A stretch of 64,000 nt of DNA, from NCBI GenBank assembly GCA_022072445.1, contig JAJVHV010000007.1, positions 1-64,000 of the forward strand, given 5' to 3'. Shown one piece after another: positions 29,496 through 32,435 of the stretch. The notes beneath the pieces were generated by a model that had not been told where the DNA came from, did not search any database, and was given only the letters and a program-made list of their open reading frames with translations. Source of the DNA: Phycisphaerae bacterium (lineage in GTDB: Bacteria > Planctomycetota > Phycisphaerae > UBA1845 > Fen-1342). Position numbers and translations under genes: made by a program. How positions within the stretch are numbered: the first letter of the stretch is position 1; every line of letters begins with the position of its first letter.

Positions 29496-30619
29496 CTATG
29501 GCGTGAAGACGATCTTCGCCGACTCGAGGTCCTGACCAATCAGCGCGGCGCCGGCCGGCGCGCTGGAGTTCTTGAACTCGCACTGCATGGCCGCGACGCC
29601 TAGCATCGCCGCCGCGATGCCCGCGCAGCCATTCCCCGAGCTGGCGATCCCGTTGATGCGGATCTTCCCGGCGTCGGTACCGAGGAGCGAGCGCGTGTAG
29701 AGCGGGCTGAAACTCGATAGCGGTCGACCGCACCACCCGGCGATGCAGGGCGCCGGCCAACTGAAGCGAACCTCGTTCTGGTTCCAGGTCGGCATGTCCA
29801 GCCGCGTCGTCGTCGGCACCGCGCTCGCCAGGTCATTCGACACTACCGCCAGCGTCAGCTCGGTCGAACCGACCTTGAAACCGTTCACGTCCGACGATAC
29901 GACCGCGCCTTCCGCGAAGAACTCCAGCAGCAGGCGCCCGGGCGCCGACTGATACTCGCCGCCGATGCTCAAAACGCCCGGCGTTCCGATGATCTCGCCC
30001 TGTGTACCCGTGTTGGACTGGAACGCCCAGGCCGCGTATTTCCACGATCTTTCGTCGCCGTAGTCCACCAGCGTGGCGGAGCCGGTCAGGTGATTCCAAC
30101 GGATCTGGCGGCCATTGGCGTCGACCGCCCAGAGAATCAGCATGCCGCGGACGACGCGGTCGCCGCTGCCTTCCGGGTCGGGTCGGCCGTTGCGCACCGG
30201 ATCGAGCCGTCCGAACGGCTGCACCCTGCTGATCGGCAGGCCGACGCCGGGCTTCCCGCTGTAGGCCGACCAGTAGGTCGGGTTCTCGACGGTCAGGCGC
30301 CCATCGAACCGCACGTTGTTCCAGCCCGGATGGGCCGGCTCGCCGAGCACCGCGGGCAGCGGCGCGTCGCCATTGACGTAGTAACCGCGAAAATAGACGT
30401 CGCCGGGCCGTCGTTGGACAGCGTGAGAATGGTGTCGGTGGCGAGTTCGGTCGAATCGATCACGCCGTTGCCGTTAAGATCGCGCCAGCGCAACTCGATT
30501 TTCGGAAAAATCAGCAGACTGCCTTTCTGCGAGGTGTTCGCCCGGTCGGACGGGTTCTGCCCCAGTGCAAACTCCGAAACGCACAGAACGACGAGCACGG
30601 CGGAAGTCAGGCGAGCCAT
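29496..30619 (-). pseudogene. Exported EF-hand protein gene interrupted by a 1-nt frameshift
   Basis: Translation from ATG 30619 gives a signal peptide (ending FALGQ) and an EF-hand-like loop DLNGNGVIDSTE (residues 48-59). The frame then becomes unlike protein near 30398-30404, inside a cgccgggccg run. One extra base there would join it to a second frame that reads DVYFRGYYVNGDAP and continues to the stop at 29496, giving an intact ~374-aa exported protein. The second part contains PCIAGWCG and ends in ESAKIVFTP. It is either a recently broken gene or a sequencing error in a GC homopolymer. The original function is unknown. GGAAAGG lies before the start. Confidence 0.75.
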
Positions 30620-30813: not shown

Positions 30814-30842
30814 TTGTCACGGCTCGTCGCTCGGCTTATTCT
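30814..30842 (+). promoter_or_regulatory. Sigma70-type promoter for the RT leader RNA
   Basis: A -35 box TTGTCA (30814-30819, 5 of 6 consensus) and a -10 box TATTCT (30837-30842, 4 of 6) are separated by exactly 17 bp. Transcription would start near 30849, leaving a 270-nt untranslated leader before the RT start codon. Confidence 0.6.
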
Positions 30843-30848
30843 GGTGAT

Positions 30849-31121
30849 GCCTCTACGAAACGGCGTGGAGGGTGGGACATTGCTGATCGTCAAGTCAAGG
30901 TCGGCCGAAAGGCTGAATCGAGACGCGACGCGCAGGCGAGCGAGAAATCGTTTCGTCTTGCACATCAGAGTGCTCCTCCGATTGTAGCGATTGTTACTTT
31001 GCGGCCTCGTCCGCGAGGACGAGTGGCGACATTCGAAGTCGAATGTTCGGCTTCAGCCGAAGGGGACCTTTGGGATGCCGCAGGTCCTCAGCGTCCCCTT
31101 CGGCTCTGCTACACGTCACGC
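30849..31121 (+). ncRNA. Candidate structured ncRNA (template/partner RNA) of the RT system
   Basis: This non-coding stretch between the promoter and the RT gene holds a row of hairpins: 8-bp arms 30850-30857/30864-30871; 6-bp 30901-30906/30911-30916 with a GAAA loop; 7-bp 30919-30925/30954-30960 enclosing a second GAAA-loop stem; perfect 7-bp CTCGTCC/GGACGAG with GCGA loop at 31006-31023; perfect 7-bp ACATTCG/CGAATGT at 31029-31046. A perfect 13-bp stem 31055-31067/31093-31105 competes with a 6-bp hairpin at 31046-31061. In DRT2 systems a similarly long, structured RNA sits directly upstream of the RT and is its template. Here the identity of the RNA is inference from position and structure; the boundaries are approximate. 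Confidence 0.6.
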
Positions 31122-32435
31122 ATGAGCAGAACGCACCGCCGAAAGCGCCCGTCATCATGGCCCGACTGGTTCGTGCCGAAGTCCTACCCGCACTTCGATC
31201 AGCCTGTTCGTGACCCCGAGCAAGTGCGGTGGCTCGTCGAAACGCCGGAGCAGGTAGCACGTCACGCCTTCCTGCCCTTCATTCACTTCGGGAAAGTCAC
31301 CCGGAAATACAAGCGTGCTGAGGGTCATTTCATCCAGAAAACTCGATCCCTGTCCTACGCAAGCCACACTGATTCGCAGCTGTTTCGTCGATACGGCAAC
31401 GAACTGTCAACCCATTACGAGACAGCGTTGATCGACGGCGGCTTCGACGGAGGGGTGCTCGCATACCGCCGCTTCGAGCCTCGCAAGTGCAACATTCACT
31501 TCGCGAACGATGCGTTTCGCTGGATCGAAGACCACGCCCCGTGCGTCGCGATGGCGTTCGACGTAAAGGACTTCTTTGAATCCCTCGATCACAAAATGCT
31601 GAAACGGGAGTGGAAGGCGCTGCTTGGTGTCGAGAGCCTCCCAGCGGATCATCATGCGGTCTTCAAGGCAATCACGCGGTACGCTTGGGTTCAGCGTGAG
31701 CCGCTTTTCGCGCGTTTCGGGATTACGAAGAAGAAGCTCGCCGACTGGCGCAAACCGATTTGCTCGCCGGCGGAGTTTCGTTCCATCGTGCGAACCGACG
31801 ATCCAGCGCGCAGTTTGATCAACAAAAAGATTGGCGGGATCGGAATCCCGCAGGGTTCACCGATCAGCGCGCTGCTCTCAAACGTCTACATGATACCCGT
31901 TGATCGGCGCATGGCCGCGCGAGCCAAGGAGTGCGGAGCACTCTACTGCCGGTACAGCGACGACATACTCATCGCCTGCAGCGCCGAGCACCGGAGTGAC
32001 TTGGAGATGGAGCTCCGGAGCGCCATGGCCGACGCAAGGCTGGAGCTTCACGACGGTCCTGGGAAAATCGCGGTCGCGAGTTTTGCCACAACCGCGGGCG
32101 GCGGCCTCGAATCGGACAAGCCCCTTCAGTATCTCGGATTCGCTTTCGACGGCCAGTTCGTGCGGATTCGCTCACAGACGGTCGCACGATTCTTCCGGAA
32201 GATGCGGAAGGCAGTGCGCCGCGAAAAATACCTGGCCACGGCGCGGGCAGAAGCCGGCGGCGACGGACGGGTTCGGCGCAAGCTGTTGTACAGCCGCTAC
32301 ACCCACTTGGGCACGAACAACTTCGTGACCGGCTACGCGAAAAACGCCCGCGAAGTCATCGATCGAAACGCGATACGCAAGCAAATGAGAAAACACTGGA
32401 CCGTTCTGCACGCACTGCTAGTCGTCGGAGCTTGA
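31122..32435 (+). CDS. Reverse transcriptase, DRT2 (UG2)-like antiphage type
   Basis: The 437-aa protein has the RT core: motif A AFDVKDFFESLDH (Asp147), GIPQGSPISALLSN at 241-254, the catalytic YSDD at 278-281 and PLQYLGFAFDG at 334-344. It lacks the maturase X, HNH and DNA-binding parts of group II intron RTs. The N-terminal WFVPKSYPHFDQP, SLSYASHTDSQLF and CNIHFANDAF blocks and the C-terminal SRYTHLGTNNFVTGYAKNA agree with what I recall of DRT2/UG2 proteins, which copy an adjacent ncRNA into repeated cDNA as an antiphage response. The DRT2 label is from memory and needs a profile search; retrons or another UG class are alternatives. ATG 31122 is preferred; an in-frame TTG at 30999 would read through the RNA stems. 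GC content (48-53% in two sampled rows) is below the neighbours, suggesting transfer. Confidence 0.8.
   Translation: MSRTHRRKRPSSWPDWFVPKSYPHFDQPVRDPEQVRWLVETPEQVARHAFLPFIHFGKVTRKYKRAEGHFIQKTRSLSYASHTDSQLFRRYGNELSTHYETALIDGGFDGGVLAYRRFEPRKCNIHFANDAFRWIEDHAPCVAMAFDVKDFFESLDHKMLKREWKALLGVESLPADHHAVFKAITRYAWVQREPLFARFGITKKKLADWRKPICSPAEFRSIVRTDDPARSLINKKIGGIGIPQGSPISALLSNVYMIPVDRRMAARAKECGALYCRYSDDILIACSAEHRSDLEMELRSAMADARLELHDGPGKIAVASFATTAGGGLESDKPLQYLGFAFDGQFVRIRSQTVARFFRKMRKAVRREKYLATARAEAGGDGRVRRKLLYSRYTHLGTNNFVTGYAKNAREVIDRNAIRKQMRKHWTVLHALLVVGA

Follow-up and report, generated by a model that had tools for sequence, protein, structure and literature searches.

A DRT2 reverse transcriptase locus in a planctomycete, its upstream structured RNA and a predicted neo gene on the opposite strand

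The window, by which we mean the whole 64,000-nt stretch of planctomycete DNA analysed here, contains a reverse transcriptase (RT) gene preceded on the same strand by a structured non-coding RNA (ncRNA), within which lie a predicted template and, on the opposite strand, a predicted neo frame (Table 1). Judged by its sequence, the RT gene encodes a full-length DRT2 reverse transcriptase. Its product scores 445.8 bits with the NCBIfam Drt2 model, above the curated cut-off of 390, and 462.9 bits with the PADLOC Drt2 model, and residues 15–424 align with the solved Klebsiella pneumoniae DRT2 (E 2e-78 with PDB entries 9lje/9c0i). In this alignment the catalytic aspartates of the two enzymes line up (D147 and YSDD at 278–281). 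Among the residues that contact RNA in the Klebsiella enzyme (PMC12596737), H16, P20 and H386 are kept and R12 and R204 are each conservatively replaced by lysine, while R389 is not kept.

The RT gene is present as a single copy in its genome. Its neighbours are housekeeping genes, encoding response regulators, a sugar dehydratase, a transaldolase, a PaaC-like protein, a sulfatase and a glycosyltransferase, and no defence gene was found among the nine neighbouring genes tested; the weak matches to SduA and PD-T4-6 belong to proteins identified by Pfam as response regulators. An empty-site comparison by way of the PaaC neighbour gave no usable result, the relatives being too diverged (≤47% identity). 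Two overlapping antisense frames at 29496–30350 and 30293–30619 (29496–30619 of the minus strand together) resemble one gene split by a frameshift or sequencing error, and the longer of the two has no Pfam match.

The nearest relative, L002, is a locus of Phycisphaeraceae H1_PLA1 (CP054186.1) with an RT identity of 63%; it is identical in sequence to G872 of the genome collection. Its genome and that of the window belong to the same class, in agreement with the planctomycete-like host proposed in the preliminary description. The DRT2 locus is sporadic, occurring in 1 of 114 genomes of the order and in 4 of 397 genomes sampled in the class. Viral contigs searched with the single protein and plasmids searched at the DNA level gave no match. 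About a dozen DRT2 genes lie on viral contigs from IMG/VR (L051–L063), mostly with a neo signature, which suggests that prophages carry the DRT2 system. In another planctomycete (L037, G615) the DRT2 gene has an in-frame TAG in its N-terminal part; the ncRNA and the neo frame (129 nt) look intact despite it. None of the papers searched names DRT2 together with planctomycetes.

Table 1 Coordinates of the RT gene, the ncRNA and the predicted neo elements in the window
Feature	Coordinates	Strand	Remarks
ncRNA promoter TTGTCA, 17 bp, TATTCT	30814..30842	+	9/12 consensus positions
DRT2 ncRNA	30849..31113	+	5′ end inferred from promoter; 3′ end approximate, after terminal stem
5′ handle hairpin, 8 bp (CCUCUACG/CGUGGAGG)	30850..30871	+	Compensatory changes in homologs; 2/300 shuffles equal
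5′ jump anchor AUUG (predicted), 7 nt past handle	30879..30882	+	Direct repeat exactly 111 nt from 30990–30993
Predicted reverse-transcription template, 111 nt	30879..30989	+	
One repeat of predicted neo frame, RYNRRSTLMCKTKRFLARLRVASRFSLSADLDLTISN	30879..30989	-	One stop-free frame round the circle
−35 TTGACT of predicted junction promoter	30893..30898	-	17 bp from TACAAT of next repeat; L002 has TTGACG there
Start codon ATG of predicted neo	30963..30965	-	
Ribosome-binding site GGAGG of predicted neo	30975..30979	-	
−10 TACAAT of predicted junction promoter	30981..30986	-	Identical in L002
3′ jump anchor AUUG (predicted)	30990..30993	+	
Pseudoknot strand 1 GCGGC, after template	31001..31005	+	Homolog pairing; same place as Klebsiella G155–C159
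Hairpin with GCGA loop, CUCGUCC-GCGA-GGACGAG	31006..31023	+	
Second scaffold hairpin CAUUCG/CGAAUG	31030..31045	+	
Terminal stem, perfect 13 bp, 31055–31067 with 31093–31105	31055..31105	+	0/300 shuffles equal
Pseudoknot strand 2 GCCGC, loop of terminal stem	31077..31081	+	98% paired in 19 homologs
DRT2 reverse transcriptase, 437 aa, YSDD active site	31122..32435	+	Family models and similarity to solved Klebsiella DRT2

A scan of 500 bp showed no promoter-like site other than the ncRNA promoter noted in the preliminary description (0.1 ± 0.3 sites in shuffles). The structured leader described with it is likewise borne out: the stretch 30849–31122 folds at −128.6 kcal/mol against −103 ± 5 in shuffles (z −4.88, 0 of 200), and the stems named there are present, those capped by GAAA being located inside the template.

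Conservation of the fold was assessed in the regions preceding 33 DRT2 genes, which came from planctomycetes, proteobacteria, cyanobacteria and viral contigs. Most of these regions begin with a hairpin, usually of 8 bp, and close with a terminal stem of approximately 10–13 bp that lies immediately ahead of the RT gene. A script was used to compare the helices one arm at a time, a MAFFT scaffold alignment of eight homologs having misplaced the 5′ part. Differences on both sides from the commonest pair were counted in 45 of 114 cells of the handle (19 homologs; only 60% paired with swapped arms) and in 80 of 160 cells of the terminal stem (20 homologs; 50% paired with swapped arms), both helices having been picked by best pairing per sequence, which biases the counts towards pairing. 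Taken alone, the handle of one homolog (L035, 45% identity) is no better than many shuffles. The pseudoknot comprises 14 distinct 5-mer pairs in 19 homologs and is 98% paired, compared with 55% when strands are swapped, its strand positions in the homologs having been picked by complementarity; the fixed-position version of the swap test is informative, whereas the whole-loop version is not, GCGG/CCGC being common to many lineages. In Klebsiella DRT2 the pseudoknot pairs G155–C159 with G250–C254 (PMC12596737).

Handle, terminal stem and pseudoknot covary in this arm-by-arm comparison, so that the conservation anticipated upstream of homologous RT genes is found. Together with the curated models and the similarity to the solved Klebsiella DRT2, the conserved upstream RNA upholds the earlier suggestion of a DRT2 partner, and the structured stretch before the RT gene almost certainly serves a planctomycete DRT2 anti-phage system as its partner RNA.

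In Klebsiella DRT2, reverse transcription of the central part of the ncRNA yields tandem repeats, and their junctions restore both a 17-bp promoter and neo, a frame free of stops that runs on the opposite strand (PMC12039810). If such a restoration is real, the positions of the −35 and −10 elements alone fix the length of the repeat. The predicted template of the window is divisible by 3, with 37 codons per repeat, and exactly one antisense frame is open across the junctions. Head-to-tail copies of the 111 nt place TTGACT exactly 17 bp from TACAAT, followed by GGAGG and ATG. The region had been described as a gap of approximately 270 nt with no gene; this holds for the sense strand, but the antisense strand has a conserved frame, the predicted Neo. 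That frame and the reconstituted promoter are the main point, which the preliminary description missed.

The L002 locus has a repeat of 129 nt, or 43 codons, open in the same antisense frame as in the window, with AUUGC as its anchor and with the −10 and the junction offset as in the window. A length that differs by 18 nt while all these relations are kept would be difficult to account for if the repeat were not used. By codon position, the Neo sequences of the window and L002 differ at 7, 4 and 6 sites in a hand count of 23 codons, too few to reveal selection on Neo.

Two −35 candidates overlap in the window (TTGACTTGACG). The one giving 111 nt was preferred, being conserved in L002 and consistent with the anchor. 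The second candidate, TTGACG, gives 116 nt, closes no frame and is not kept in L002. Also rejected was a template between the first ACA and the ACA at 30962–30964, which measures 85 nt and is indivisible by 3. ACA does not occur at both template ends, ACA lying at 30877–30879 with CGA at the matching 3′ place; since other divergent DRT2s also lack ACA ends, we read the missing pair as a probable feature of the clade.

The full neo signature occurred in none of 3000 dinucleotide shuffles, for the window and for L002 alike, and was absent from all 628 further stretches of the window and from all 1916 stretches taken at other RT loci. It was present upstream of 17 of the 33 DRT2 genes with a 3-nt anchor threshold and of 8 with 4 nt. 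As a positive control, Klebsiella-like Escherichia coli DRT2 loci gave ACA and 117 nt, the published arrangement. For 26 of 33 homologs the period set by the best promoter pair is divisible by 3, where one in three is expected, and for 18 of 24 once close relatives were collapsed (P 3.6e-5), the window itself scoring as a miss under the neutral tie-break of this test. Direct repeats at the junction had a mean length of 3.7 nt at a spacing of 17 bp, compared with 1.4–2.2 at spacings of 11–16 and 18–23, among the 19 loci with a period divisible by 3, a few tied pairs having been settled by the longer repeat.

Individual loci depart from this arrangement in different ways. L035 was missed by the scan, its −10, TACGCT, being weak; worked out by hand and post hoc, its repeat measures 129 nt and has one open frame, with a 3-nt anchor whose offset is the same. 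Two other homologs (L006 and L040) have perfect TTGACA/TATAAT pairs; a spacing of 16 bp is needed for these to yield an open frame and a period divisible by 3. No convincing junction-promoter signature was found upstream of DRT2 on two Calothrix plasmids (L038 and L039), which would have either another promoter type or another mode. Two plasmids of Rhizobiaceae have an annotated small hypothetical protein in the antisense frame that precedes drt2 (minus strand, 1177–1305 in L042 and 1171–1305 in L043). It overlaps the predicted neo repeat, so that databases may already contain some neo genes listed as orphan proteins.

The RT family, the fold of the ncRNA and the layout of the template are read from the sequence itself. 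Taking the explanation as a whole, Neo included, we consider it very likely that the locus is a two-part DRT2 abortive-infection system, consisting of the ncRNA and the RT that uses it. By analogy with Klebsiella DRT2, the RT would be seated on the handle together with the pseudoknotted 3′ scaffold, copy the 111-nt template and halt at a constant distance of 7 nt from the handle. CAAT, the end of the new cDNA, would then leave AUUG at 30879 and re-anneal to AUUG at 30990, beginning the next lap. After phage infection the repeated cDNA would become double-stranded, with TTGACT joined to TACAAT at 17 bp, so that the promoter would be present only in the concatemer. The transcript, with its ribosome-binding site, ATG and stop-free frame, would be translated into Neo, a repeated protein causing cell arrest.

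An alternative is that the ncRNA is reverse transcribed, but that the window represents a divergent clade with another product or mode of expression, the antisense frame being a by-product of constraints from promoter and fold. The Tang preprint describes difficulty in annotating Neo in divergent DRT2 clades and suggests alternative mechanisms (PMC11100668). At this G+C, moreover, a 37-codon circle that is open is by itself no rarity, as 31 of 110 shuffles with a 17-bp pair were also divisible by 3 and open. This reading is nevertheless unlikely, given that promoter spacing, anchor period, divisibility by 3, ATG and ribosome-binding site coincide in the window, in L002 and in about half of the divergent DRT2 loci. 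A cis-regulatory leader controlling the RT gene, such as a riboswitch or attenuator, would equally appear as a structured RNA directly upstream on the same strand, and competing pairings do exist at 31046–31061, from which a switchable fold had been proposed. Comparison does not support that proposal, the alternative pairing being absent from more distant relatives; moreover, the leader has no Rfam match (Rfam models matched only two tRNAs in the whole window) and no terminator, and its structure matches the RNA solved with Klebsiella DRT2, pseudoknot position included, which makes such a leader very improbable. A retron, whose RT would also have a structured RNA upstream, here an msr-msd copied into msDNA, can be practically dismissed, retron RT models scoring far under their cut-offs (St85, 50.5 against 235 bits) and Drt2 passing its own.

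Under a DRT2 system that makes neo, the position of the jump anchor may follow a simple rule. The gap from the handle to the start of the 5′ anchor is 7 nt in the window, in L002 and in the E. coli loci and 6–7 nt in several others, a constancy that fits an RT stopping at a fixed distance from the handle. The junction falls 14 nt after the −35 in the window and 6 nt after it in the E. coli loci, with a spacer of 17 bp in both. Among divergent DRT2s, the anchors of individual lineages include AUUG, CGUUC, GUUC, AGAU, GAAG and AGUAUUA. We lean towards the view that DRT2 jumping needs not ACA as such, but any short direct repeat approximately 7 nt past the handle, matched where the 17-bp spacer is restored; anchors would then be lineage-specific, and neo synthesis would extend to divergent clades including planctomycetes, where it was previously unannotated.

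DRT2 assembles a gene that is absent from the genome, and whether divergent clades make neo is left open in the Tang preprint (PMC11100668). The window and L002, with the same layout at different repeat lengths, suggest that they do, down to planctomycetes. A rule combining the anchor repeat with the 17-bp junction promoter could find hidden genes without relying on ACA.

The window shares with Klebsiella pneumoniae DRT2 (PMC12039810, PMC11100668, PMC12596737) the RT family and length, the succession of handle, central template and pseudoknotted scaffold, the 17-bp junction promoter, one circularly open antisense frame and a repeat divisible by 3. The Klebsiella-like E. coli loci also have the same 7-nt gap between handle and anchor and read the −10 (Tyr-Asn) and −35 (Val/Leu-Asp) in the same frame as the window. 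The anchor is AUUG rather than ACA, the junction lies 14 nt rather than 6 after the −35, and the repeat measures 111 nt rather than 120; the RT has 437 residues and YSDD at its active site, compared with 425 and YCDD in Klebsiella. The predicted Neo of the window is basic (pI 11.6), unlike that of Klebsiella. Outside the pseudoknot, the ncRNA has no recognisable sequence similarity to that of Klebsiella, so that an RNA unlike the enterobacterial ones, as first proposed, is correct for sequence but not for architecture, which is shared. With L002 the ncRNA is similar throughout, the differences being a repeat longer by six codons and a terminal stem of 11 bp. DRT9, DRT3 and other class 2 UG RTs likewise combine an RT with a structured ncRNA for phage defence, but belong to different RT families, for which the window RT scores lower, and, as far as the accounts available describe them, make other DNA products, homopolymers and dinucleotide repeats.
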